36,270 nucleotides of DNA from Rubrivivax sp. (GTDB lineage: Bacteria; Pseudomonadota; Gammaproteobacteria; Burkholderiales; Burkholderiaceae_C): assembly GCA_021298085.1 (NCBI GenBank), contig JAJTDE010000052.1, positions 1-36,270 of the forward strand, given 5' to 3'. Positions 8,876-33,173 of this stretch are shown here, piece after piece. The position numbers and the translations under genes were made by a program. The notes under the pieces are model-generated. The model did not search any database, was not told the origin of the DNA, and worked only from the letters and a program-made list of their open reading frames with translations. Numbering within the stretch: the stretch's first letter is position 1; each line of letters opens with the position of its first letter.

Positions 8876-9915
8876 GCGGCGATCGTTCCTCCGCGCCGGG
8901 CTACCCCGCAATGCCCGGCCCGCTCGTGGCCGTGGACGGGCTGAGCAAGGTCTTTGACGTTTCGGCCCCGTGGCTGAACCGGGTGCTGGAAGGCAAGCCG
9001 CGCCAGCGTGTGCACGCGGTGGACGGGGTCAGCTTCAGCATCCAGCGGGGGCAGACGCTGGCCCTGGTGGGTGAATCGGGCTGCGGCAAGAGCACGGTGG
9101 CACGGTTGCTGGTGGGGCTGTATGCACCCACGGCAGGCACGCTGCAGTTTGATGGCCAGGACACCCGCGCGGTGCTGGCCGGCCCGAACGCGGCTGCGCT
9201 GCGCCGCCGCATGCAGATGATCTTCCAGGACCCCTATGCCAGCCTGAACCCGCGCTGGCGCGTGCGGGACATCGTGGCCGAGCCGCTGCACGAGCACAAG
9301 CTGCTGGTGGGTGACGACGATGGGCAGGCCAAGGTGGGCCAGTTGCTGCAGTCCGTCGGCTTGGCGGCAGCCGATGCGGCGAAGTTTCCGCACCAGTTTT
9401 CGGGCGGCCAACGCCAGCGCATCAGCATCGCACGCGCGCTGGCCACCCAGCCGGAATTCCTGGTCTGCGACGAGCCGACATCGGCACTGGACGTCTCCGT
9501 GCAGGCCCAGGTGCTCAACATCATGAAGGACCTGCAACGCGAGCGCGGCCTGACCTATCTCTTCATCAGCCACAACCTGGCGGTGGTGCGCCACGTGGCC
9601 GACGAGGTGGGGGTGATGTACCTGGGCCGCCTGGTGGAGGTGTCGCCCAAGAAGACGCTGTTCAGCGCGCCGCGCCACCCCTACACCCGCATGCTGCTGG
9701 ACGCGATTCCCGACATCCAGATGAGCGGCCGTGCCCGAACCCCGGTGCAGGGCGAGGTGCCCAACCCCCTGAACCCGCCCACGGGCTGTGCCTTTCACCC
9801 GCGCTGCCCGCATGCCAATGCCCGTTGCAGTGCCGAGCGGCCTGTGCTGGTCAAGCGTGACGGCGTGCGGGTGGCCTGCCATGCCGTGGAGGAAGGGCGC
9901 ATCCCGGCGCCGTGA
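8872..9915 (+). CDS. ABC transporter ATP-binding protein, DppF/OppF family
   Basis: A 347-residue cytoplasmic ATPase, the second subunit of the heterodimer. Walker A is GESGCGKS (67-74), Q-loop IFQDP (117-121), signature FSGGQ (176-180), Walker B with D200 and E201, and switch H234. The C-terminal extension carries GCAFHPRCPH and further cysteines as in the partner. The ATGA overlap at 8872-8875 indicates translational coupling and equal subunit supply. It is the last gene of the operon; a small hairpin follows directly after its stop. Confidence 0.95.
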   Translation: MSGDRSSAPGYPAMPGPLVAVDGLSKVFDVSAPWLNRVLEGKPRQRVHAVDGVSFSIQRGQTLALVGESGCGKSTVARLLVGLYAPTAGTLQFDGQDTRAVLAGPNAAALRRRMQMIFQDPYASLNPRWRVRDIVAEPLHEHKLLVGDDDGQAKVGQLLQSVGLAAADAAKFPHQFSGGQRQRISIARALATQPEFLVCDEPTSALDVSVQAQVLNIMKDLQRERGLTYLFISHNLAVVRHVADEVGVMYLGRLVEVSPKKTLFSAPRHPYTRMLLDAIPDIQMSGRARTPVQGEVPNPLNPPTGCAFHPRCPHANARCSAERPVLVKRDGVRVACHAVEEGRIPAP

Positions 9916-9917
9916 CA

Positions 9918-9933
9918 GCGCCATTTGTGGCGC
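9918..9933 (+). terminator. Short hairpin after the transporter operon
   Basis: GCGCCA-TTTG-TGGCGC, a perfect 6-bp stem with a 4-base loop, begins three bases after the stop of the last ATPase gene. No T-run follows, so it is at best a weak or Rho-assisted terminator or an mRNA-end stabiliser. Confidence 0.4.
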
Positions 9934-10033
9934 CCTGGTAACAGTTGCTGACGATTTGGCCGCCGTGACCCCGCAGCATCGGGGTCTCTGGCGGGCGCGC
10001 TGCGGGTTTTGCGGCCGCAAACGCGTGCAAGAT

Positions 10034-10050
10034 GTCACGATTCTTGTGAC
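10034..10050. promoter_or_regulatory. Dyad GTCAC-N7-GTGAC upstream of the G8-domain gene
   Basis: An inverted repeat 56 bases before the chosen start of the large lipoprotein gene, inside a 190-base gap. Its arms suggest an operator, but no regulator gene is adjacent. I see no convincing -35/-10 pair around it. Apart from this dyad and the hairpin at 9918-9933 the gap holds nothing I recognise. Confidence 0.3.
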
Positions 10051-10105
10051 GCCGACCGCCAAGGCCCGCGCAATACGCGCCCGAGGGCCCGGTCGCCCCC
10101 GCACC

Positions 10106-13100
10106 ATGACGGTCTTTTCCTGGGCCACGCGGCTTCAATGTGCCGCGCGGCTGTCTGTCCTTTTTGTGTGGCTGAGCGCGGTCGGCCTGGGCCTGGCTTC
10201 CTGTGGCGGCGGCGACAGCGACGCGCCCGAGGCCGCGTCTGCGGCGGCAACCTCCGCCCCCCTGAACGCCCACGACACCCATGGTCATCCGCAGAGCAAG
10301 CCGCTGAATGGCGCGCTGAATGGCATCTTGGTCGACGCCGCCGAAGAGGCGTTGGGCGAACTCTGCCGCGGCGACGAGACCGAAGGAGCCGATGGCGCCT
10401 TGGTGGCGGTGCAGGCCGCCTCGACCGCCCGCAAGGCGTCCACGCCAGCCATTGCCACCGGCCTGACGGCACCGGCCAGCGTGTGCTTCTTCGAGAATAC
10501 CCAGTACACCGGCCGCAGCACCTGCGCCAGCATCGGTGCCGGCGACATACCCGTCGCGTTGGACAACCGCATCTCGTCGGTGCAGGTGCCGCCGGGACTG
10601 CGCCTGGAGCTGTTTGACCAGGCCGCCCAGTCGGGTGCCAGCGCGGTGCTGACGGCCAACGCCCCCAACCTGGGCACGCTGGCCTTCAATGACCGGACCA
10701 GTGCCTTTCGCATCACGGCCACCGTCACCCCACCACCCGTGGCTGACACCTTCTACTGGTCTAACCCGGCCACCTGGGGTGGCAGCAAGCCGGTGGCCGG
10801 CGCCGCCGTGCACGTCCCGGCCGGCATGAAGCTGGTGCTGGACGAGTCCACGCCGTCGCTGGGGGTGCTGACCATCGAGGGTGAGCTGTCGGTCAGGCCC
10901 GGGGCCAAGGTGGACCTGATCACGGCGGCGATCGTGGTGCGCGGCTCGACGGGTGTGCTGCGGGCTGGTGCCGAAGGTCAACGCTTCACCGGCAAGCTGG
11001 CCATCACGCTGACGGACACCTACCGTGCCGGTGATGTGACGGGCCTGCGCATGGGGACGCGCGGCATCATCGTGTATGACGGTGGCAAGCTGCTGCTGTT
11101 CGGGTCGCCCCCGGCCTTGTCCTGGACGCGCCTGGCGGCCCATGCGCCGGCGCAGGCGAAATCGCTGAGCCTGAGCCAGGTTACCGGGTGGGCTGCCGGC
11201 CAGAAGGTCGCGATTGCGCCCACCGAGTGGTACCCGGTGTTTCCGTGGGCCCTTCAGGCCCAGCATGACGCGTCGGTGGGCACCGAGCTGCGCACGCTGT
11301 CCGGCGTCAGGGTCCAGACGGCCAACCTGACCACGGCGCTCTCGCAGTTCAAGTGGGGCAGCCTGCAGTACATGACCGACAACGGGCTCAGCCTCAGCCC
11401 GGGCCCCTTCAACGCGCCGCACCCCGATGCCGCCCGTGTGATCGACGAGCGGGCCGAGGTAGGCAACCTGACACGCAACATCGTCGTCCAGGGCCTGAAT
11501 GACCTGCGCTGGAAGCAGGATGGCTTTGGGGCGCACATCATGGTGATGGACCTGGCCTCACGGGTGCAGCTGGACGGCGTTGAGCTGCGCCAGATGGGCC
11601 AGGCGGGCATCGAAGGGCGCTACCCGCTGCATTGGCACATGCTGTCCTACGGGCCGTCTGGCCAGCTGCTGGGCGATGCGGTGGGCCACTTTGTGCGCAA
11701 CAGCAGCATCTGGAACTCGCGCCAGCGCTGCATCGTGATCCACGGCACCAACGGCGTCACCGTGAGCAACAACGTGTGTTACGACATCAAGGGCCATGGC
11801 ATCTTTCTGGAAGATGGCGTCGAGCGGCGCAATGTCATCGAGGGCAACCTGGTGCTGCGGGTGCGTTCACCGCAAAGCGCCCACCTGATCACGCGCCACG
11901 AGGAGGGCGGTGCCGCGAGCGGGTGTGGCGGCGGAGCCGCAGGCTTCTGGTTGACCAACCCCGACAACACGGTCCGCCACAACGCCGTGGCCGACGCGCA
12001 GGGCAATGGTTTCTGGTTGTCCTACCCGGCCACCCCCAAGAAGCAAAACGCGCACGTGCCGATCCGCCCTGTCAACCTGCCGCACGCCCCCTTCGAGCAC
12101 AACACCGCCAGGGCCAATGGTTTTTATGGTGTCGCCCTGGAATGCGCGATGGTGGACGATGCCGGGAATACCGGCTTGATCCAGTATGCGCCGACCGTTG
12201 ACGGATCGCCCTTCGACTTCAGCAATGGCCAGCGTTTCACCCTGCGTGGCATCACGATGGCCAAGAACATGATGGGTGGCTACCTGAACCGTGCCACCTA
12301 CCCGGACTACCGGCAGTTTGTGCTGGCTGGCAACCTGCAGCGCTCGATCACGGGTGTGGTGCTCCAGGGCAGCACGAAACATGCCCTCGTGGTGGCCAAC
12401 AGCCTGAACCAGCAGCAGCCTCCGCCCGCGTGCTGCCTGGAGCCCCAACTGGCAATTGCCTCCTACCACTCGCAGATGGACATCAGCGAGAACACCTTCA
12501 GCGGCTTTGCCAACCGCGGTTATGCCCGCACCAGCAACGGCTGGGACCTTTCCTCGGGCACCTTCGGCACCGATGACTACTACGTCAAGCCCGTGGAGAA
12601 GGGCTTCGCGCGCAACGTCAACAACCGATTGATCGGTTCCGACCCGGGCTGGCGCGCGCTGCCGCCCCACATGCAGCCCAACTACACCGTGGCCAGCCGC
12701 AACAGCTGGACCTTGGCCGGTGCCCTCTGGGACCCCTACGGCCATGTCGCGGGCGCCAACCGCTGGTGGGTGCTGGATTCGCCCTTTCTGAGCGATGCCA
12801 GCTGCCAGCCCGTGCCGTCCAGTGTGCCGGCCGGCACGGTGGCCAACGGCCTGAGCTGTGCCGGGCCGTACTACGGGGTCGTCGATTTCTGGCTGAACCG
12901 CGATGGCCCCCATGCCACCGACCGCTTCGGCCTGTTGGAGAAGCTGGTGGTCAAGCGCTACACACCCAGCGGCCAGTGGGTGGCTGACTGGGTGGTGGAG
13001 CAGGGTTACGACAGCCGTTTCCTGGGCCACATGCGCCACTTTGCAGCGCTCAAGCAGGCCCGGTATGAGCTCACGTTGCCGCAGTACCCGCAGGCGGCGA

Positions 13101-13456
13101 CGGTCAAGCAGGCGCCACGCTGGCTGCAGTTCCATGTCGAGAACCTGCTGAACAGCGGCGACGAACTGTTGCTGGCCGTGCCCTTTGACGGCACACGCAC
13201 ACCCACGCGGGTGATGGCGTCCACCAACCCCGATTTCGCCCGCCTGTCACCGCCGGGCCAGGACTCGCGGCTGCTGACGCCGGTGGCGTCGCTGGCCGCG
13301 TTGTCTCAAGGCCCGGGGCACCAGTACTGGCAGGACAGCGCCCGCCAGCGCATCTGGCTGAAGCTGGTGCCCCTGGGCCTGGAAGCCCCGTTTGCCGGCG
13401 CTGAGGCGCTGAGCGACACGGCGCTCTACCGGCGTTATGCGGTGCGCATCGAGTGA
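10106..13456 (+). CDS. Large lipoprotein: beta/gamma-crystallin-like domain + G8 domain + parallel beta-helix
   Basis: About 1116 residues. The N-terminus is a lipoprotein signal (Arg-containing head, hydrophobic core, LASC with lipidated C33 followed by GGGDSD), so it is probably attached to the outer membrane. Residues 124-205 look like a beta/gamma-crystallin repeat pair (VCFFENTQYTGRSTC, later LELFDQ..QSGAS). From about 217 a G8 domain starts (YWSNPATWGG, then AAVHVPAGMKLVLDES). A long beta-helix follows (about 450-850), with the YPLHWHM motif at 506-512 matching the YPxHxH motif of CEMIP/TMEM2-like proteins, and NNVCYDIKGHGIFLEDG. Animal relatives bind or degrade hyaluronan; a glycan-binding or -cleaving role here is inferred. 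The start at 10106 fits the signal peptide, although no clear ribosome site is present. Confidence 0.85.
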   Translation: MTVFSWATRLQCAARLSVLFVWLSAVGLGLASCGGGDSDAPEAASAAATSAPLNAHDTHGHPQSKPLNGALNGILVDAAEEALGELCRGDETEGADGALVAVQAASTARKASTPAIATGLTAPASVCFFENTQYTGRSTCASIGAGDIPVALDNRISSVQVPPGLRLELFDQAAQSGASAVLTANAPNLGTLAFNDRTSAFRITATVTPPPVADTFYWSNPATWGGSKPVAGAAVHVPAGMKLVLDESTPSLGVLTIEGELSVRPGAKVDLITAAIVVRGSTGVLRAGAEGQRFTGKLAITLTDTYRAGDVTGLRMGTRGIIVYDGGKLLLFGSPPALSWTRLAAHAPAQAKSLSLSQVTGWAAGQKVAIAPTEWYPVFPWALQAQHDASVGTELRTLSGVRVQTANLTTALSQFKWGSLQYMTDNGLSLSPGPFNAPHPDAARVIDERAEVGNLTRNIVVQGLNDLRWKQDGFGAHIMVMDLASRVQLDGVELRQMGQAGIEGRYPLHWHMLSYGPSGQLLGDAVGHFVRNSSIWNSRQRCIVIHGTNGVTVSNNVCYDIKGHGIFLEDGVERRNVIEGNLVLRVRSPQSAHLITRHEEGGAASGCGGGAAGFWLTNPDNTVRHNAVADAQGNGFWLSYPATPKKQNAHVPIRPVNLPHAPFEHNTARANGFYGVALECAMVDDAGNTGLIQYAPTVDGSPFDFSNGQRFTLRGITMAKNMMGGYLNRATYPDYRQFVLAGNLQRSITGVVLQGSTKHALVVANSLNQQQPPPACCLEPQLAIASYHSQMDISENTFSGFANRGYARTSNGWDLSSGTFGTDDYYVKPVEKGFARNVNNRLIGSDPGWRALPPHMQPNYTVASRNSWTLAGALWDPYGHVAGANRWWVLDSPFLSDASCQPVPSSVPAGTVANGLSCAGPYYGVVDFWLNRDGPHATDRFGLLEKLVVKRYTPSGQWVADWVVEQGYDSRFLGHMRHFAALKQARYELTLPQYPQAATVKQAPRWLQFHVENLLNSGDELLLAVPFDGTRTPTRVMASTNPDFARLSPPGQDSRLLTPVASLAALSQGPGHQYWQDSARQRIWLKLVPLGLEAPFAGAEALSDTALYRRYAVRIE

Positions 13457-23818: not shown

Positions 23819-25135
23819 ATGTCCACCGTCCTGGCCCCGCCACCGGCACGTGCCTCACGCGTGCCGCCGGCAGCGCCTGGGCCACAGGCCCCGCTGCTGG
23901 CCGCCAACGCGGTCGAGCTCACCATCCTGATGCCGTGCCTCAACGAGGCCCGCACCCTGGGCGCGTGCATCGAGGAGGCCCAGGGCTTCCTGCGCCGCAG
24001 CGGGGTGGCCGGTGAGGTGCTGATCGCTGACAACGGCTCGACCGACGGCTCACAGGCCCTGGCGCAATCGCTGGGTGCACGGGTCATCCATGTCCGGGAG
24101 CGTGGCTATGGCGCTGCCTTGCGGGCCGGGATTGACGCTGCCGCCGGGGATTTCGTTGTCATGGGCGACTCCGACCAGAGCTACAGCTTCGCGCGCCTCG
24201 AGCCGTTTGTGCAGGCGCTGCGCGAGGGGCATGAGCTGGTGGTGGGCAACCGCTTCCGCGGCGGCATTGACCCGGGTGCGATGCCGCTGCTTCACCGCTA
24301 CGTAGGCAACCCGGTGCTGAGCTTCCTGGGCAGGCGCTTCTTCGGCGGTCCGCTGCGCGATTTCCACTGCGGCCTGCGCGGCTTTTCGCGGGCATCGATC
24401 CAGCGCCTGAACCTGGTCACGACCGGCATGGAGTTCGCCAGCGAGATGATCGTGAAGGCGCTGCAGGCGCAGCTGCGCATCTGCGAGGTCCCCACCACGC
24501 TGGCCAAGGATGGCCGCGGCCGCCCACCGCACCTGAATACCTGGCGTGATGGGTGGCGTCACCTGCGGTTCCTGCTGCTGTACTCGCCACGTTGGCTGTT
24601 CCTGTACCCGGGCGCGCTGCTGACGCTGCTGGGCCTGCTGCAGCTGGTGGTGGCGCAGGCGTCGACGCCCGGCGCCGGCTGGTGGCCCGTGGGCATCCAC
24701 ACCCAGCTCTTTGCGGCCGCCGCCACCGTGATGGGCTACCAGACCATGCTCTTTGCGGCGGCCGCGGTCATTGCCCGCGCCGGTGCCGGCCTGGACGTAC
24801 CCCATGCGATGGAACGCCGCGCCTTGGCGCTGGCTCGCGGCCTGGCGCTGCCCGTCCTGGGCGCTGCCGGTACCGCGGTCGGTTTGCTGCTGTGCCTTGG
24901 CCTCACGCTCAGCTGGGGGCGCAGCGGCTTTGGCGCACTCGACCCGGAGATGGCCATGCGGCAGATCATTCCCGGCGTGGCCTTGCTGCTGGTGGGCACA
25001 CAGTCGCTGCTGGCCTCGGTCTTCCTGGCAGCCATGCAGAGTGCCTTTGATTCCCTGCGCCCCGGCGCGGGCGCGGCCACGCCCGCCGCATGGGCGCAAG
25101 GGACACACGCAGCGCCGGTGGGCCGCACACCATGA
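23819..25135 (+). CDS. Membrane-anchored family-2 glycosyltransferase (dolichyl/undecaprenyl-phosphate sugar synthase-like)
   Basis: A 438-residue inner-membrane enzyme. The cytoplasmic GT-A domain has TILMPCLNEA (about 35-44), IADNGSTDGS (69-78), ERGYGAALRAGI, the DSD metal motif (117-119) and GNRFRGG. The segment FHCGLRGFSR is typical of polyprenyl-phosphate hexose synthases. Four predicted helices follow from about residue 250 (YSPRWLFLYPG onwards). It probably transfers a sugar to a lipid phosphate carrier for surface polysaccharide. The 30-residue Pro/Ala-rich N-terminus is unusual; the start is weak and a later one is possible. Its stop overlaps the next ATG (ATGA at 25132-25135). It opens the cluster. 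Confidence 0.88.
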   Translation: MSTVLAPPPARASRVPPAAPGPQAPLLAANAVELTILMPCLNEARTLGACIEEAQGFLRRSGVAGEVLIADNGSTDGSQALAQSLGARVIHVRERGYGAALRAGIDAAAGDFVVMGDSDQSYSFARLEPFVQALREGHELVVGNRFRGGIDPGAMPLLHRYVGNPVLSFLGRRFFGGPLRDFHCGLRGFSRASIQRLNLVTTGMEFASEMIVKALQAQLRICEVPTTLAKDGRGRPPHLNTWRDGWRHLRFLLLYSPRWLFLYPGALLTLLGLLQLVVAQASTPGAGWWPVGIHTQLFAAAATVMGYQTMLFAAAAVIARAGAGLDVPHAMERRALALARGLALPVLGAAGTAVGLLLCLGLTLSWGRSGFGALDPEMAMRQIIPGVALLLVGTQSLLASVFLAAMQSAFDSLRPGAGAATPAAWAQGTHAAPVGRTP

Positions 25136-25896
25136 TGAGACCCGCACTGCTGGTTGAACTGCTGCTGCTGACGCTCCTGGCGGCCCTGGGTGCATCCGCG
25201 CTGGCGTGGCAAGTCGGTCAGTGGGGCTGGAACTGGGACGCGATCAACCACCACATCTACCTCGGCTTGGCGGCCGAGCAGGCGCGTTGGTCGCTGGACG
25301 TGCTGGCTGCGGGCACGCAGGTCTACCAGTACCCCTACCTCTACTGGCCGGTGTACAAGATCGCGCAGATGAGCGGCTCCGGTCTGGCCGCCGCCATCGC
25401 CTGGTCAGCCGCGCAGGCCGCCCTCCTGCTGCCCCCGGTGTGGCTGATGGCACACCGCCTGATCGACAGCGGTGCGATGGCTCCTTGGGAAGCCGCGCTG
25501 CTGCGTTTGGCGGCCTGCCTGCTGGCCTTCCTCAACGGCATCCTGCTCCATGGCCTGGGTATGACCTCCAACGACCTGCTGGCGGCCCTGCCCTTGGTGT
25601 GGGCGGTGGCGCTGCACGCAGGCCGCAGCTCGTCTGAGCGGACGGCCATGCTGTGTGCGGCGCTGTGGGGCGTGAGCACGGCCTTCAAGTGGTCCAACGG
25701 GCTGATGCTGCCTGTCCTGCTGTTCTGGTGGTGGCAGGCCGAGCGGCCGCACCTGCCCTGGCGCCGCGGCCTGGCCCTGGCGGCCGGCGCCGTGTTGGGC
25801 TTCGGGTTGGCTTACCTGCCATGGGGTCTGCAGCTGTGGGAGGTGCGCGGCAACCCGTTCTATCCGTACTTCCGCGGCATCTTTCCGGGCCATTGA
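25132..25896 (+). CDS. N-terminal half of a polytopic membrane protein (interrupted by in-frame stop)
   Basis: 254 residues, almost all membrane: a first helix at about 6-26, then WNWDAINHHIYLGLA, YQYPYLYWPVYKIA and five or six more hydrophobic segments. It ends NPFYPYFRGIFPGH at a TGA (25894-25896). After that stop the frame stays open through one Thr codon into the Met of the next entry, so both pieces are in one frame. The break falls in the extracytoplasmic loop after GNPFYPYF, which in related GT-C-like membrane proteins leads straight into an RF.PDS..D.LL.P segment such as the one that opens the next piece. It looks like a nonsense mutation (TGG or CGA to TGA) in a protein of about 641 residues. 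The type is probably a polysaccharide-related membrane glycosyltransferase or polymerase, but I do not recognise the family name. Confidence 0.75.
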   Translation: MMRPALLVELLLLTLLAALGASALAWQVGQWGWNWDAINHHIYLGLAAEQARWSLDVLAAGTQVYQYPYLYWPVYKIAQMSGSGLAAAIAWSAAQAALLLPPVWLMAHRLIDSGAMAPWEAALLRLAACLLAFLNGILLHGLGMTSNDLLAALPLVWAVALHAGRSSSERTAMLCAALWGVSTAFKWSNGLMLPVLLFWWWQAERPHLPWRRGLALAAGAVLGFGLAYLPWGLQLWEVRGNPFYPYFRGIFPGH

Positions 25897-25899
25897 ACC

Positions 25900-27060
25900 A
25901 TGTTGCGCTTCAAGCCCGATTCCTGGGTCGATGGCCTTCTGCGCCCCTTGCTGCTGGCCGATCCGTCCAAGGGCATCTATTTCGAAGATAGCGCCCCGGA
26001 TGCGCGCTTCCTGGCCTTGGTGGTCGTGCTTCTGGTCGCCTTCACCATCGGGCGCGGCCGGGCCCTGGCCTCACCACGGCAACGACAGGCGCTGTGGATG
26101 CTGGCGGTGGTGTTTTATGTCTGGACCCTGTCCATCGGCAACGGGCGCTACTTCATCGTGGGCCTGCTGATGGTGGGTCCGCTGCTGGTGATGGCCTGGC
26201 AGTGGCTGCCCGGCAGCCGGACGCTTCGAGGGCTGCTGTTGCTGGGGTTTGTCGGCTTGCAGTGGCAAACGGTCCAGTCGATGTACCGGCCGGGAAGCTG
26301 GCTGCTGGCGGGCTGGCGCAGCGGCCCGTCGGTGGTGCTGGAGGATACGCCGCTGCAGCGGGCGCCGGCGGTCTTCTTGACCCTGTCGAGCAACGGCTAC
26401 GGCGCGCTGGTGCCGCGCTTCCATGCCCAGTCCAGATGGGTCAACCTGGGGCATCAGATGGTCATCGGCCCCGGTCAACCCGAGTACAAGGATGTGCGGG
26501 CGCTGCTGACGGCACCGCTGCCAAAGTACCTTGTCGCACCGGCTGACCTTCCAAAGGGCAGTCAGGTGGCGCAACCGTCGGAGGGCTTGCGCCAACGGTT
26601 GAACCAGGATCTCCATCACCATCAACTTGCCCTTGCCGACGAGCTCTGCAGCATGGTGCGCAGCAACTTGCTGTCCAAGAGCCTGACCGACAGTGACCGA
26701 GCGCCGTCCGCACGTGCCTTCTGGATCTGCCCTTTGCGCGCCGAGTCCTCGCCGGTGCCCCCCACCACAAAACCTGATGAGGCGACGCTCGCCGCCTTCA
26801 GCAGTGTGGAAGCCTATTGCCCACGGTTTTTCCCCAGCGGCCAAGGCATCACGCGTCGTGACGAAGGCCAGTGGTTGCGCTACTACCCCTCGACCGACTT
26901 CCATGCCTACCTGGACGACACCGGTTATGTCAGCTACAAGTATTTCCTGAGCTATTCGGCCGTCACGATCGGTACCGCCGAGGATGTGCGGGCCGGGCGC
27001 CTGCAGCTGGATTGCGCGCGCCCGAGAGGCCGCTACCGCCCGCCCTGGGTCACGGACTGA
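25900..27060 (+). CDS. C-terminal half of the interrupted polytopic membrane protein
   Basis: 386 residues beginning MLRFKPDSWVDGLLRPL. Three membrane segments fall at about 37-50, 65-90 and 95-125, then a large probably periplasmic domain (about 130-386) with SSNGYGALVPRF and WLRYYPSTDFHAYLDDTGY segments and several Cys. It has no signal peptide or start region of its own. The ATG at 25900 lacks a ribosome site and lies three bases after the upstream TGA, so expression would need reinitiation or readthrough. This supports a single gene broken by a stop; two natural subunits are the less likely reading. The ATGA-type coupling in the upstream neighbour shows that the first half keeps its own normal start. 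Confidence 0.72.
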   Translation: MLRFKPDSWVDGLLRPLLLADPSKGIYFEDSAPDARFLALVVVLLVAFTIGRGRALASPRQRQALWMLAVVFYVWTLSIGNGRYFIVGLLMVGPLLVMAWQWLPGSRTLRGLLLLGFVGLQWQTVQSMYRPGSWLLAGWRSGPSVVLEDTPLQRAPAVFLTLSSNGYGALVPRFHAQSRWVNLGHQMVIGPGQPEYKDVRALLTAPLPKYLVAPADLPKGSQVAQPSEGLRQRLNQDLHHHQLALADELCSMVRSNLLSKSLTDSDRAPSARAFWICPLRAESSPVPPTTKPDEATLAAFSSVEAYCPRFFPSGQGITRRDEGQWLRYYPSTDFHAYLDDTGYVSYKYFLSYSAVTIGTAEDVRAGRLQLDCARPRGRYRPPWVTD

Positions 27061-27063
27061 ACG

Positions 27064-27943
27064 ATGCAGGCCCACATCCATCCGCCACGCGTGGTCGTGC
27101 TGATGTCCACGTACCAAGGCGCTCCCTATGTGGCGGAGCAGCTGCGCTCCATCCTTGACCAGCTGCCGCCCTCAGGGCGTGTGCTGGTGCGTGACGACGG
27201 CTCGCGTGACGGCACGGCGGCCATCGTCGACGGCCTGGCTGACTTGCGGGTGCATGTGCAGCGTGGTGCCAACCTGGGCTTCGCCCACAGCTTCCTGACT
27301 TTGCTGTCGCAGGCCCCTGCAGCCCCTGGGCGCCGTTCCGGCCCTCTACGGCAGCGCGCAGATGCTGGTGGATGCTCAGTTGCAGCCGCTTCGGGCCACA
27401 CCACCGTGGCCAGGCCTGCCCTCGTTTGCCGGCGCCCTGTTGGAAAACATGATCACCGGCTGCACCGCGGCACTGAACCGTCCGGCCCTTCGGTTGGTGC
27501 AACGGGCGGGTGTCCCCCCGAGGGTGCGGTTTCATGACTGGTGGCTGTACCTGGTCGTCAGCGCCTTCGGACGGGTGGTGATCGATGATCGGCCCACGCT
27601 GCTGTACCGGCAGCACGGCCGCAACCTGATCGGCCATGGCGCGGGGTGGTTGGGCCGCCAGCGGCAAATTGTCCGATTTCTGCTGCGCAACGACTGGGTG
27701 GGCATCCTCTTGGCCCAGGTGGCCGAGCTGATGCGCTGCTATGGCGCAGAACTGGCACCACAGCACCGGCGCCTGGTGGAGGCGCACTTCCGGCAGACAG
27801 AGGGCCGCTGGTCCCCCGCGTGGCCCTTGGTGTTCAGTCTGCGCCGCTGGCATCACTCGGTGTTGGGAGAGGTGGCTTTGCGCCTCTTGCTGGCGCTGCA
27901 CCGTCTTCGGCTGTGGCCCTTGCCGGGCCGCCGCCTGCAGTGA
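27064..27943 (+). pseudogene. Broken family-2 glycosyltransferase (internal deletion and frameshift)
   Basis: The first frame, from ATG 27064, encodes the GT2 N-terminus: VVVLMSTYQGAPYVAEQLRSI, LVRDDGSRDGT and NLGFAHSFLTLLSQAP. After about 27315 it turns into Arg/Gly-rich nonsense and stops at 27537. The continuation is in the +1-shifted frame, readable from about 27317 (LQPLGAVPALYGSAQMLVDAQLQPL) to the TGA at 27941-27943, with HDWWLYLVVSAFG and TLLYRQHGRNLIG as in rhamnosyl-type GT2 enzymes. Between the halves the usual central stretch with DQDDVW, the metal-binding motif of these enzymes, is absent. A deletion of about 30-40 codons (3n+2 bases) explains both. The product would be inactive. 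Assembly error is the alternative. Confidence 0.82.
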
Positions 27944-28014: not shown

Positions 28015-28126
28015 CGTATATGTGCGCTTTAAGGCGTCTGTGCGACGCCCAGAATGGTTCCACGTCAGGGACTCGGACGCTTGCCGTCGGCTGGCCCGAG
28101 GCCTGGCATATGCGCCTTTGTCACCC

Positions 28127-29275
28127 ATGAAACGAGACCCCCTGGAAGCCACGCAGGTGGCAGGTTTGCGCACGCTCTACGTGACGCAGCCCGACTTGCC
28201 GCCTCTGGAGGACTTCGTCGCCAGCCTGAAAGAGGTGTGGGACAACCGCATCCTGACCAATGGCGGGCCTTTCCACCAGCGCTTCGAACAGGCCTTGGCA
28301 GAGACGCTCGGTGTGGAGCACCTGGCGCTGTTTGCCAATGGCACGCTGGCGCTCGTGACGGCGCTTCAGGCGCTGCGTGTGACGGGTGAGGTCATCACCA
28401 CACCGTACTCGTTTGTGGCCACTGCCCACTCCTTGTTGTGGAATGGCATCAAGCCGGTGTTTGTCGATATCGACCCGGTCACGCTCAACATGGATCCGGC
28501 CCGTATCGAGGCGGCCATCACCCCTCAGACGACGGCCATCCTGCCGGTCCATGTCTATGGCAGGCCGTGTGATGTCCGGGCCATCCAGCAGATTGCGGAT
28601 CACTACAACTTGCGGGTGATCTATGACGGCGCCCACGCATTTGGTGTCAACACCGCCCATGACGGGCAGAGCGTGATGCGACACGGTGATGTCTCGATGA
28701 TGAGCTTTCATGCGACGAAGGTCTTCAACACCTTCGAAGGCGGTGCACTCGTGTGCCAGGACGCCAAGACCAAACGCCGCATCGACCACCTGAAGAATTT
28801 CGGATTTGTCGACGAAGTCACCGTGGTTGCCCCTGGCATCAACGGCAAGATGAACGAGTTCACGGCCGCGATGGGATTGCTCCAGCTGTCACGCATCGAG
28901 ACGGTGCTGGCCAAGCGCAGAGCCATTGCCGCGCGTTACCGCGAAGGTTTGGCCGGCGTGGACGGCATTCGAATGGTCTTCGATCGGGACGATGCGAGCA
29001 CGAATTACGGCTATTTTCCGATTCTGATCGGGCCGGAGTACCCGATGGACCGCGATGCGCTGTATTGGAAGCTGCGGGCCGCCGACATCTATGGGCGGCG
29101 CTACTTCTTTCCGCTGATCTCGGATTTCCCGATGTACCGCGGGATGCCATCCGCAGCGCACGCCAACCTGCCTTCTGCCGTGGAGGCTTCCAAGCGCGTC
29201 TTGTGTCTGCCGATCTACCCAGATCTGTCCCCCGACGATCAGGCCCGTGTGATCGACGCCATCCGGAGCCATTGA
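28127..29275 (+). CDS. DegT/DnrJ/EryC1-family sugar aminotransferase (VioA-like)
   Basis: A 382-residue PLP enzyme that probably aminates a dTDP-4-keto-6-deoxyhexose. Marks are ILTNGGPFHQRFE, FANGTLALVTALQAL, GEVITTPYSFVATAHSLLWNGIKPVFVDI, D167 in IYDGAHAFG (cofactor pyridine contact) and the Schiff-base K198 in SFHATKVFNTFEGGAL, then GINGKMNEF. These resemble VioA (dTDP-4-amino-4,6-dideoxyglucose synthesis) more than WecE or ArnB. The start ATG 28127 places the family N-terminus (RTLYVTQPDLPPLE) properly; an ATG-less extension upstream is not homologous. The next gene, one base after the stop, is an acetyltransferase, which fits formation of an N-acetylated amino sugar. No rmlA/rmlB is in the window. 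Confidence 0.9.
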   Translation: MKRDPLEATQVAGLRTLYVTQPDLPPLEDFVASLKEVWDNRILTNGGPFHQRFEQALAETLGVEHLALFANGTLALVTALQALRVTGEVITTPYSFVATAHSLLWNGIKPVFVDIDPVTLNMDPARIEAAITPQTTAILPVHVYGRPCDVRAIQQIADHYNLRVIYDGAHAFGVNTAHDGQSVMRHGDVSMMSFHATKVFNTFEGGALVCQDAKTKRRIDHLKNFGFVDEVTVVAPGINGKMNEFTAAMGLLQLSRIETVLAKRRAIAARYREGLAGVDGIRMVFDRDDASTNYGYFPILIGPEYPMDRDALYWKLRAADIYGRRYFFPLISDFPMYRGMPSAAHANLPSAVEASKRVLCLPIYPDLSPDDQARVIDAIRSH

Positions 29276-29276
29276 C

Positions 29277-29846
29277 ATGGCGATGCTCGGCAGGGACGCC
29301 CTGCAGGCTTTGGGGTTTGCCGCGTTGGGCCGCGACGTGCAGGTCTCGGACCGCGCATCGTTCCACGGTGCGCAGCGGATCGCACTGGGTGATCGCACGC
29401 GCATCGACGACTTCTGTCTGCTGTCGGCAGGCGACGGCGGCATCGAGATCGGCGCACATGTGCATGTGGCGGCCTACACCTCGCTGATCGGCGCAGGTCG
29501 CATCCGCGTGGCCGACTTCGCCAACCTGTCTTCCCGCGTGTCGGTTTACTCCAGCAGCGACGATTATTCGGGCCGCACGATGACCAACCCGACGGTTCCG
29601 GACGCGTTCAAGGACGTGACATCCGCGCCAGTGTTCATCGGTCGTCACGCCATCATCGGTTGTGGCGCGGTGGTGTTGCCAGGGGTTCGCCTGGAGGACG
29701 GTGTGGCCGTCGGTGCGTTGAGCCTCGTGAACCTCGATTGCGAGGCCTTCGGCGTGTACGCCGGGGTACCGGCTCGGCGCATCAAGGATCGTTCGCGCGA
29801 GCTGTTGCAGCTGGAGCGGCGCTTTCTGCGTACCTGCCCAGGTTGA
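29277..29846 (+). CDS. Hexapeptide-repeat acetyltransferase
   Basis: A 189-residue left-handed beta-helix acyltransferase. Hexapeptide turns run through the protein (IALGDRTRIDDFCLL, IEIGAHVHVAAYTSLIGAG, VFIGRHAIIGCGAVVLPGV, VAVGALSLV) and it ends in YAGVPARRIKDRS. The segment SSRVSVYSSSDDYSG is characteristic of a subgroup found beside VioA-like aminotransferases. It probably N-acetylates the 4-amino sugar made by that neighbour, using acetyl-CoA; O-acetylation of a glycan is possible. It starts one base after the preceding stop. A second in-frame ATG lies two codons later (29283). The stop may overlap a TTG start of the flippase. Confidence 0.88.
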   Translation: MAMLGRDALQALGFAALGRDVQVSDRASFHGAQRIALGDRTRIDDFCLLSAGDGGIEIGAHVHVAAYTSLIGAGRIRVADFANLSSRVSVYSSSDDYSGRTMTNPTVPDAFKDVTSAPVFIGRHAIIGCGAVVLPGVRLEDGVAVGALSLVNLDCEAFGVYAGVPARRIKDRSRELLQLERRFLRTCPG

Positions 29847-29851
29847 CCACG

Positions 29852-31354
29852 GTGTCCGTCACCACCAGCGCGCTTGCCACCACCGCCAGCCGGCTCTACG
29901 TGGCCGTTCTGGGGCTGATTGCGATGCCGTGGTACGCGCGACTTCTGGGCGAGGAGGCCTACGGTCTGGTCGCGCTGTTCTTGTTGCTCCAGGCCTGGTT
30001 TCAGATCTTCGATCTGGGTTTCACCGCAGCACTGACGCGTGAGGCTGCGCGACAGCGGGCGGGCGCGCTCAGCGCCAGGGCGCTGTGGGGCTTGGTGGTC
30101 TCTCTGGAGGCCCTGGTCTGGGGCTTGGGGGTCGCGGCCGCTGGCGTGTTGTGGTGGCTGGCCGATCCTTTGGCGCGTCACTGGCTGCAGTTGGAAGGCC
30201 TTTCGCCCGAGTCGGCGGCGTTCGCCATCCGGCTGATGGTGGTGTGCACGTTGTTGCGCCTGGGCACTGAGCTTTACCGCGGCCTGCTGGCGGGATCTGA
30301 GCGTCTGGTGTGGCTGGCGGGCAGCGCCGCTGCATTTGGCAGCTTGAGGTTGCTGGGCGTGCTGCCCTTCCTGGTGTGGGCCGGCCCGTCGCCCATGGCC
30401 TTTTTTGTGTACCACCTGGCCGTGGCGCTGCTGGAGGTGTCTGTTTTGCGCGCCCAGGCGATGCGTCGGCTGCCCGCTGTGCCTGGGTGGAAGCCGACAC
30501 CGGCCTGGGAGCCGGTTCAGCGGGTGCTGGGGCTGTCGCTGGCCATGTCGCTGGCCACGCTGGTGTGGGCGCTCTCCTCGCAGGTCGACAAGCTGGTGCT
30601 GTCGGGGCTCTTGAGCTTGAAGGACTTTGGCGGTTTCAGTCTGGCCACCACCGCCGCAGCGGCGGTGCTGCTCGCCACCGGTGCGCTGGGCGACAGCCTG
30701 GTGCCTCGTCTGACGGCCTTGATGGCCGCCGGTTCCGCGGACGATCTGCGTCGCCTGTACCGCCAGGCGACGCAGATCGGTGGCGTGCTGGCCTGGTCGG
30801 TGGCGGCCTGGCTGGCCTTTCACGCAGAGAGCGTCCTGTGGGTCTGGACAGGACAGTCTGACTGGGCCGAGCAGTGGGCGCCTGTGGTCGTGATGTATGC
30901 GCTGGGCAACGCGGCACTGGCGCTCAGCGCCTTCCCCTTTTACCTGCAGCTGGCCCACGGCCAGCTGCGCCTGCACGTGATCGGCACCGGCTGCATGGCG
31001 ATCCTGCTGGTGCCTGTGGTGTGGTGGGCGGCCGATGCCTGGGGAGCACCCGGTGCAAGCGCCGCATGGCTGGGGGCCAATTTGATGTACCTGCTGTTGT
31101 GGACCCCGCTGTCGCACCGTCGATTTGCGCCGGGCCTGCACCGCAGCTGGTTGCTGGACGATGTGTTGCCCCCCGCCCTGTTGGCCCTGACGGTGGGGTG
31201 GGGCACGTCCGCCGTGGCATTGCCTCAGCACCGGGGTGGCGCTGCAGCCTTGTTGTTGCTCACGATGGCCTTGATCGTGCTGGCCAGTGCGGCAGGCTCC
31301 ACGTCCCTCCGTCAGCAGGGCATGCAGCACCTGGCGCGCTGGCGACCCACCTGA
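29852..31354 (+). CDS. Wzx-like oligosaccharide flippase
   Basis: About 500 residues, with roughly 12-14 hydrophobic segments spread over the full length, of the MOP/polysaccharide-transport (Wzx) superfamily. It would move lipid-linked repeat units across the inner membrane. The N-terminus LATTASRLYVAVLGLIAMPWYARLLGEEAYGLVALF and the SSQVDKLVLSGLLSLKDFGGFSLA segment are typical. The start is GTG 29852 or TTG 29843, whose last bases overlap the acetyltransferase stop (TTGA); no good ribosome site decides. It fits a Wzx/Wzy-type pathway, but no intact polymerase gene is seen here. The broken membrane protein at 25132-27060 is a candidate for that role. Confidence 0.88.
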   Translation: MSVTTSALATTASRLYVAVLGLIAMPWYARLLGEEAYGLVALFLLLQAWFQIFDLGFTAALTREAARQRAGALSARALWGLVVSLEALVWGLGVAAAGVLWWLADPLARHWLQLEGLSPESAAFAIRLMVVCTLLRLGTELYRGLLAGSERLVWLAGSAAAFGSLRLLGVLPFLVWAGPSPMAFFVYHLAVALLEVSVLRAQAMRRLPAVPGWKPTPAWEPVQRVLGLSLAMSLATLVWALSSQVDKLVLSGLLSLKDFGGFSLATTAAAAVLLATGALGDSLVPRLTALMAAGSADDLRRLYRQATQIGGVLAWSVAAWLAFHAESVLWVWTGQSDWAEQWAPVVVMYALGNAALALSAFPFYLQLAHGQLRLHVIGTGCMAILLVPVVWWAADAWGAPGASAAWLGANLMYLLLWTPLSHRRFAPGLHRSWLLDDVLPPALLALTVGWGTSAVALPQHRGGAAALLLLTMALIVLASAAGSTSLRQQGMQHLARWRPT

Positions 31355-31392
31355 TGCCCGCCGGCCAACTGGACCCTTGACCGAAGCCCCTG

Positions 31393-32214
31393 ATGAAGCC
31401 GATGTTGAACCTCCCTCGGGCCGCCACCACTGCGTTGCGGCTGCTGCGCAAGGCGTGGTGGCGTGTGCCGGCGGCCAACCCTGTTGGCGCCAGGCACCGG
31501 TGTGTCATGTGCGGACATCGTATCAGCCGATTTCTGCCGTATCGAGACGGGTCCGGTGCGTTGCCGGCCGTCTTGCAGGCACAAGATGTGATCGGCAGCG
31601 ATGTGGACAACTTCCAATGTCCGGTCTGCGGCTGCCATGACCGCGAGCGGCATCTGCTGCAATACCTCGTGGCCAGCGGCATGCTGGCCGCGATGGGTGG
31701 CATGCGGGTGCTGCACTTTGCACCGGAGCGTCATCTCGGACGACGCCTCGCGTCTGTTGGCTTGTCGCGTTATGTGCTGGCCGATCTCCATCCGCGCAGC
31801 CGCGGCGTGCGGCGTCTGGACCTGACGGCCATCGACCTGCCCGACGCACAGTTTGATCTGGTCATTGCCAATCATGTGCTGGAGCACGTGGCGGACGACC
31901 AGCGCGCGCTCAGCGAGATCCACCGTGTCTTGCGGCCAGGCGGTTCGGCGATTCTGCAGACGCCCTACGCCGCGCGGCTGGGGCGCACCGTCGAAGACCC
32001 GTCCATCATCACCGACGAGGCGCGCCTGCAGGCATATGGTCAGGAAGACCACTGCCGTCTTTACGGTATGGACTTGGTGCATCGGGTAGTTGCGGCGGGC
32101 TTTGTCAGTCGGGTCGCGACCCATGCCGAACTGCTGCCACACATCGATGCTGCCATGACCGGGGTGAACCCGCGGGAACCCTTCCTGCGGTTTGGCAAGC
32201 CGCTGCAGCCATGA
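31393..32214 (+). CDS. SAM-dependent methyltransferase with N-terminal Cys knuckles
   Basis: A 273-residue class I methyltransferase. The N-terminal part has two Cys pairs, C37/C40 (CVMC) and C76/C79 (CPVC), likely one zinc site. The SAM fold follows: motif I VLHFAPERHLGRRL (106 onwards), then LDLTAIDLPDAQFDLVIANHVLEHVADDQRAL and HRVLRPGG. The FAPE form of motif I is the variant used in polysaccharide-cluster methyltransferases. It may methylate a sugar or a glycan end. It lies 38 bases after the flippase gene, and its stop overlaps the next ATG (ATGA). Confidence 0.87.
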   Translation: MKPMLNLPRAATTALRLLRKAWWRVPAANPVGARHRCVMCGHRISRFLPYRDGSGALPAVLQAQDVIGSDVDNFQCPVCGCHDRERHLLQYLVASGMLAAMGGMRVLHFAPERHLGRRLASVGLSRYVLADLHPRSRGVRRLDLTAIDLPDAQFDLVIANHVLEHVADDQRALSEIHRVLRPGGSAILQTPYAARLGRTVEDPSIITDEARLQAYGQEDHCRLYGMDLVHRVVAAGFVSRVATHAELLPHIDAAMTGVNPREPFLRFGKPLQP

Positions 32215-33173
32215 ACCCCCCGTTCCGCGCTGCCCACGGGCCGGGTGAGCCCCCGGCTCTGTGCCCGTCGAGGCCGGACGACACCGTCCACACCGTGGCC
32301 GAGCAGGCACTGGCCCCGACGGAGCCGCCGATGGTCAGCATCTTGTGTCTGACCTATCACCATGAGGCCTTTGTGGCCCAAGCGCTGGAAGGCTTTCTGG
32401 CGCAAGAGACGACTTTCCCGTTCGAGGTGGTGCTGGCCGACGACGCCAGCGGTGACGGCACCCTGGCCGTCGTCGAAGGCTTCAGGGCTCGTTTCGGTGC
32501 TCGTCTGCGTGTGTTGACCACGCCTGTCAACCTCGGTGTAACGCGCAACTTTCGCCGCGCCTTGCAGGCCTGCCGCGGGCGCTACGTAGCCTTTTGTGAA
32601 GGCGACGATTACTGGAATGGCCATGACAAGCTCCAGGCGCAGGTGGACTTCTTGGAGCACAACCCGGGTTTTGTAATGTGCTTCCACGATGCCATGGTCA
32701 TCGACAGCTTTGGCCATGAGCAGGGCATCCAGCTGACCGGGCGCTTGAGGCGGGATGCCAGTGCATCGGAGTTGATGGCCACCCGGCCGATATCGACGCT
32801 GACGGTTTGCTTCCGCCATGTGCTCAAGGACGTGCCGGCCGAACTCGACCATGCCCCTGCGCTCGACTTGTGCCTGTGGTCATTGCTGGGGCAACACGGC
32901 GGTGGCAAGTACATGGGTTCGATCCAGCCGGCGAGCTACCGCGTGCACGGTGGTGGTGTGTTCTCGACCCAGACGACGCGCAACAAGTGCCTGATGTCGG
33001 CTCAGTCCTTGCTGTGCCTGGCGCGCATCTGGGCTCGCCAGGGTCGTGCCGATCTCAGCGACATGCTGCTGTTGAAGGCCGCCATCATGGCTTGTTCGCG
33101 TCTGGGCACTGCCGCATTCGGTTGGCCATCGGTGGCGATGTTGGCTCAGATGCTGATGCGACTGTGGCGATAG
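32211..33173 (+). CDS. Family-2 glycosyltransferase
   Basis: A cytoplasmic or membrane-associated GT2 enzyme, 320 residues. GT-A marks are VSILCLTYHHEAFV (42-55), LADDASGDGT (75-84, D77/D78 for the nucleotide sugar), and EGDDYW (130-135, the metal-binding DxD equivalent), then KLQAQVDFL. The ATG at 32211 overlaps the preceding stop. Its first 40 residues are Pro-rich and lack GT2 similarity, so an internal ATG at 32331 is a plausible alternative start. It is the last gene of the cluster. Donor and acceptor sugars are unknown. The 121-base region after it (33174-33294) contains only a possible hairpin. Confidence 0.88.
   Translation: MNPPFRAAHGPGEPPALCPSRPDDTVHTVAEQALAPTEPPMVSILCLTYHHEAFVAQALEGFLAQETTFPFEVVLADDASGDGTLAVVEGFRARFGARLRVLTTPVNLGVTRNFRRALQACRGRYVAFCEGDDYWNGHDKLQAQVDFLEHNPGFVMCFHDAMVIDSFGHEQGIQLTGRLRRDASASELMATRPISTLTVCFRHVLKDVPAELDHAPALDLCLWSLLGQHGGGKYMGSIQPASYRVHGGGVFSTQTTRNKCLMSAQSLLCLARIWARQGRADLSDMLLLKAAIMACSRLGTAAFGWPSVAMLAQMLMRLWR

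Follow-up and report, generated by a model that had tools for sequence, protein, structure and literature searches.

The window analysed here, a stretch of 36,270 nucleotides (nt) from Rubrivivax sp. (GenBank assembly GCA_021298085.1, contig JAJTDE010000052.1, positions 1 to 36,270 of the forward strand), carries within a polysaccharide cluster two adjoining open reading frames (ORFs) on the forward strand, 25132-25896 (half 1) and 25900-27060 (half 2). We consider it likely that the pair represents two working, translationally coupled genes whose products form one transferase, and that they arose in the Burkholderiales when the gene of a single-chain GT-C glycosyltransferase was split once, long ago. 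The ORFs share one phase; half 1 ends with a TGA at 25894-25896, followed by ACC and by the ATG of half 2 at 25900, the whole junction (TGA-ACC-ATG) occupying 25894-25902. A start of half 1 at 25135 instead of 25132 is possible. An earlier note on this DNA had described the two same-phase ORFs and their separation by TGA-ACC correctly, but the protein ends that it quoted need correction: half 1 ends in NPFYPYFRGIFPGH and half 2 begins with MLRFKPDSW.

The two halves cover adjacent, non-overlapping parts of one single-chain family. In profile comparisons, half 1 corresponded to columns 5-251 of this fused family (E 1.2e-44) and half 2 to columns 262-651 (E 9.7e-56). Relatives were collected with half-2 queries only, in six overlapping genome samples whose match counts include the window's own genome: 7 of 61 related genomes matched, as did 10 of 81 from the genus, 18 of 399 from the family, 8 of 399 from the order, 4 of 369 from the class, and 5 of 398 from the phylum. 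An additional contig scan gave four loci, two of them already known from the genome samples. After merging by place, 44 distinct loci remained, of which 18 are split and 26 fused, and the proposal of the earlier note that the halves belong to one protein holds in the evolutionary sense that the 26 more distant loci carry both in one frame. No relatives of half 2 were found in plasmid records or viral contigs.

Besides the window locus, its genome has a further split copy, and 16 more loci show the split as well, with half-2 identities reaching as low as approximately 28-43%. Split loci were found in genera g1, g46, g48, g121, g123, g127, and g179 (families f1 and f39) and in Ramlibacter monticola, and their junctions are present in independent assemblies, two of which consist of one contig each, G208 (4.08 Mb) and G158 (4.51 Mb). 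All four matched genomes from other orders (G872, G1205, G1224, and G1499) have the fused form. In unrooted trees, which took in 19 of the 26 fused rows, a single branch parts split from fused rows with a bootstrap of 100, both for half 1 and for half 2. The fused group of the half-1 tree attaches, weakly supported (62), next to one lone split row, the parting of split and fused rows still being supported at 100. The rooted tree covers half 2 only (44 rows, with three fused rows of other orders as outgroup) and unites the split rows in one clade (100/99), with warnings for long branches (L074 and L075) and for long branches meeting. On these trees, a single fission without reversal among the sampled loci is the simplest history.

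The second copy of the pair lies on a 4.5-kb contig (C66, locus L005) of this 5.06-Mb draft genome of 349 contigs. It holds all of half 2, with 80% DNA identity to the window over 1181 nt, and a remnant of approximately 84 nt from the last part of half 1, with 89% identity, the contig ending inside half 1. Its junction, TGA-ACC-ATG, is identical to that of the window. Judged from nonsynonymous (dN) and synonymous (dS) substitution rates, half 2 is under purifying selection between the window and C66 (dN 0.149, dS 0.601).

All 18 split loci are cut at the same loop, and the form of the junction varies among them. Half 1 ends in TGA at 14 loci and in TAG at four, and half 2 begins with ATG at 13, GTG at four, and TTG at one. 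The spacing from stop to start is +3 nt in seven loci, -4 nt in four, and +2 nt in two, with one each at -1, +8, +13, +18, and +24 nt. Nine junctions are in frame and nine are out of frame; one of the latter (G006), known from a single assembly, adjoins a run of G, and eight other loci are likewise out of frame. A start codon one or two codons ahead of a conserved R-F was found in 17 of the 18 split loci versus one of the 19 fused loci tested (of 26). With the cut site constant, the variation in stop identity, phase, and spacing is evidence against a new nonsense mutation, against selenocysteine or conserved readthrough, and against a local error. A nonsense mutation, readthrough, or a sequencing error had been the causes offered in the earlier note; these are unlikely because the remaining 17 members of the clade likewise have two genes, with differing stops, phases, and overlaps.

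Spacing falls between -8 and +10 nt in 15 of the 18 split loci, the window among them. Huber et al. treat this range as predictive of termination-reinitiation coupling and report that gene pairs within it are enriched for subunits of complexes (PMC10666635). The window also provides an internal control, a TGA-ACG-ATG junction at 27058-27066 between half 2 and the next, unrelated GT2 gene, which has the geometry and phase of the split junction; phase and spacing alone are therefore no pointer to one protein. Stop-NNN-ATG junctions at the end of half 2 were seen in L016 and C66 as well as in the window, which gives the impression of a house style of these operons. At the window's half-2 start, the duplex with the anti-Shine-Dalgarno (anti-SD) sequence has an energy of -2.5 kcal/mol, the median for random positions inside half 2 being -2.4 kcal/mol. 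The median over the half-2 starts of all 18 split loci is -4.95 kcal/mol, and eight of them pass the random 10th percentile of -5.8 kcal/mol, which the window fails. Some members thus have a usable ribosome site and others would depend on coupling. The statement in the earlier note that half 2 lacks a ribosome site fits the window but not all of the split loci, and the arrangement that it regarded as contrary evidence, relatives with two separate genes and ribosome sites of their own, was found in near relatives as far as the two genes are concerned, with ribosome sites in some only.

An AlphaFold model of the fused relative L010 (12-row alignment) reached a predicted local distance difference test score (pLDDT) of 85.3 and a predicted template modeling score (pTM) of 0.87. 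A Foldseek search of the PDB with this model gave eight matches at E<=0.001, all of them to GT-C enzymes: ALG9 (4.9e-7), ArnT (1.7e-5 and 1.3e-4), PglB, an archaeal oligosaccharyltransferase, Pmt4, and two EmbA chains. Taken with the profile homology of the window halves, this fold places both halves in the GT-C superfamily. No Pfam or NCBIfam family matched the window halves, and none in NCBIfam matched the halves of L024; against PDB sequences the half-1 profile had no match up to E 1 and the half-2 profile none at E<=0.001 (best 0.028). Weak Pfam matches were obtained to GT87 in one of 13 half-1 rows (2.1e-6) and to PMT_2 in two of 12 fused rows (best 2.2e-5), and GT87 appeared under the cut-off in one of 12 fused rows (0.0014).

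Alignments comprised 13 of 17 rows for half 1, 14 of 18 for half 2, and 12 of 26 for the fused family. The Asp of a WD motif is invariant in all aligned half-1 and fused rows (13/13 and 12/12) and, by the model, would sit in the first external loop, at the tip of juxtamembrane helix 1 (JM1). Four Cys are invariant in the aligned half-2 rows (14/14), which a periplasmic cap would allow for. From the helix list of the L010 model and loop charges, not from a topology program, we infer seven transmembrane (TM) helices before the break (TM1-7) and four after it (TM8-11), followed by a periplasmic domain; a plain hydropathy scan of the window halves detects only 4 + 2 strong segments. With its match to the fused family and its WD-motif Asp, half 1 would be the conserved, catalytic module of a GT-C enzyme, and half 2, with its own match and its four Cys, the variable module and periplasmic cap. 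The break would then lie in the external loop after predicted TM7, between the conserved and variable modules; in the L010 model it maps to a part predicted with low confidence, around residues 250-280. In none of the 18 half-2 N-tails do basic residues outnumber acidic ones, and in most rows the half-1 tail is preceded by a helix with basic residues ahead of it, a charge pattern that weakly fits a periplasmic place of both cut ends. A conserved TM1-7 module with a variable module and periplasmic domain has been described for AftB (PMC12041299), and conserved TM1-7 and variable TM8-12 modules for Gpi14 (PMC12653191). Part of the TM7-TM8 loop is disordered in ArnT, and for the corresponding loop of TMTC proteins a critical role in catalysis and donor binding has been argued (PMC7801869).

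Directly upstream of the pair and on the same strand, positions 23819-25135 encode a GT2 glycosyltransferase, a probable polyprenyl-phosphate-sugar synthase that would make the sugar donor. It matches Pfam Glycos_transf_2 (1.3e-25) and NCBIfam AglJ (2e-37, below the cut-off of that model), and its best matches among solved proteins are dolichol monophosphate mannose synthase (9e-10) and ArnC (2.8e-8). A homologous GT2 adjoins the split pair in all 17 testable loci, upstream in 14 and downstream in three (L025, L038, and L039), and is found near 12 of 22 fused relatives, for which mostly 1.5-kb flanks were available. Periplasmic glycosylation systems are described as having at their core a donor synthase next to a GT-C enzyme (PMC11127046). 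The neighboring GT2 alone hints that the split pair transfers sugar from a polyprenyl-phosphate donor. No GtrA-family (PF04138) match was found in the window's genome, in which other flippase families were not searched genome-wide; a MOP-type flippase gene is present in the window cluster.

In the mechanism that we propose, the ribosome would terminate half 1 and reinitiate 3 nt further on, keeping the two chains in step. The break would replace approximately 10 residues of the TM7-TM8 external loop, and half 1, contributing the catalytic module with the Asp in its first external loop, would assemble with half 2, contributing the variable module and cap, into one enzyme. The assembled enzyme would use the polyprenyl-phosphate-sugar donor from the adjacent GT2 and, at the periplasmic face, attach the sugar to a surface glycan. 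A bolder version, to which we give a low probability, is an obligate two-subunit GT-C enzyme in which the modules are permanently separate chains and the break lies in the donor-binding loop; reinitiation by a translocon-docked ribosome would set the second chain, its N-tail crossing the membrane, beside the first, and variable modules might perhaps be exchangeable.

Several points weigh against two coupled genes with a joint product. The ratio of dN to dS is usable for the window-C66 pair only, values for other pairs being saturated and not used (half 1, median 0.41 with 83 of 136 pairs usable and maximum 0.80; half 2, median 0.50 with 120 of 153 pairs usable and maximum 1.14). The three loci spaced at +13, +18, and +24 nt are long for reinitiation, and the in-frame share of 9/18 is slightly above the third expected by chance among rows that are related, leaving room for some readthrough there. 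The Foldseek TM-scores of the L010 model are low (approximately 0.2-0.5), and half 2 modeled by itself had a middling pLDDT of 68.7, with a best PDB fold match of E 0.21, short of the threshold of E<=0.001. Half 2, no longer joined to half 1, must also translocate its N-tail across the membrane.

Were the stop codon created by a sequencing or assembly error, as a draft genome in 349 contigs might allow, the same TGA-ACC-ATG would hardly stand in the 80%-identical C66 copy, nor would split junctions appear in independent assemblies, two of them single-contig; error was rejected because independent copies carry the split, and its probability is practically negligible. A recent nonsense mutation making a pseudogene in this strain would agree with the apparently disrupted neighboring GT2 (27064-27943) and with distant relatives being single ORFs. 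It would have to be reconciled with the same split in the paralogous copy and in 16 other loci, which extend to the low half-2 identities given above, and with the purifying selection on half 2 between the window and C66, and we see very little chance of it.

Selenocysteine and programmed readthrough were rejected on the out-of-frame half of the junctions and the mixture of 14 TGA and four TAG stops. A form of readthrough yielding some full-length chain, in addition to the two pieces or in their place, would draw on the nine in-frame junctions, seven of which have exactly 3 nt from stop to start, but the nine out-of-frame junctions, the TAG stops at 4 of 18 loci, and the overlap of stop and start in five loci all speak against it, as does the same geometry between the next, unrelated pair of genes in the window; we regard it as highly improbable. 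That the two proteins act apart, or that half 2 has another role with no joint enzyme, is also improbable. The spacing of up to +24 nt in one locus would suit such independence; against it, the halves are adjacent in all 17 loci in which both are visible, and their full lengths match one fused family. The searches, made with half-2 queries, would have missed an orphan half 1.

Beyond the split pair, the second GT2 gene (27064-27943, forward strand) is 80 nt shorter than its copy on C66 (321 aa); the missing stretch holds an acidic ADQDD region and the frame is changed, the region being read as ORFs 27064-27537 and 27362-27943. From this comparison the gene is apparently disrupted, either as a pseudogene or through misassembly. 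The polysaccharide locus on C66, which differs from that of the window, has an intact downstream GT2 and, after it, methyltransferase-like and flippase-like ORFs on the opposite strand. By Pfam hits, the remainder of the window cluster (28022-33173, forward strand) encodes a DegT aminotransferase, a hexapeptide transferase, a flippase-like protein (29729-31354), a methyltransferase, and a GT2. Locus L062 (G158) shares with the window the order GT2, split pair, DegT, hexapeptide, flippase region, methyltransferase, and GT2, the second GT2 being absent from L062. Elsewhere in the window, positions 9788-13456 encode a protein of 1222 aa that has G8 and CEMIP-type beta-helix domains, known from animal hyaluronan-handling proteins.

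Naturally split membrane proteins are already known as a kind (PMC3464245), and among the matches listed in the open-access literature none reported a naturally split GT-C enzyme. The pair resembles GT-C class A enzymes (ArnT, PglB, AftB, and ALG9) in fold, as seen for L010 with Foldseek, in the invariant Asp of the first external loop, and in the sequence of conserved TM1-7, variable module, and periplasmic domain given for AftB and Gpi14 (PMC12041299, PMC12653191). Those enzymes are single-chain as described there, whereas here each module has its own gene and the cut lies in the TM7-TM8 loop. Three-component glycosylation systems (GtrA/GtrB/Gtr; Citrobacter ORF12-15) likewise place a polyprenyl-phosphate-sugar synthase by a GT-C enzyme in a polysaccharide cluster (PMC11127046), but in the present case the GT-C is split and the genome has no GtrA-family flippase match. 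Split-Doa10 (PMC3464245) is also a polytopic membrane protein in two fragments, cut in a loop throughout a clade; it differs in being eukaryotic, with a 508-bp intervening sequence and assembly shown, whereas the genes here touch or nearly touch and the assembly of their products is proposed. Like termination-reinitiation pairs (PMC10666635), most split loci have spacings of -4 or -1 nt or only a very short gap; they depart from such pairs in that the commonest spacing is +3 (7/18) and both genes go back to a single ancestral chain.

GT-C enzymes are described as a conserved and a variable module in one chain, and an old fission near the boundary would show that these modules are separable. 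It would also show that the connecting TM7-TM8 loop need not be continuous, and so offer a natural test of the role of this loop. The split pair further provides a test of how an N-out membrane fragment inserts when its gene is coupled to that of its partner. For annotation it carries a warning, as such pairs can pass for genes broken by nonsense mutation.

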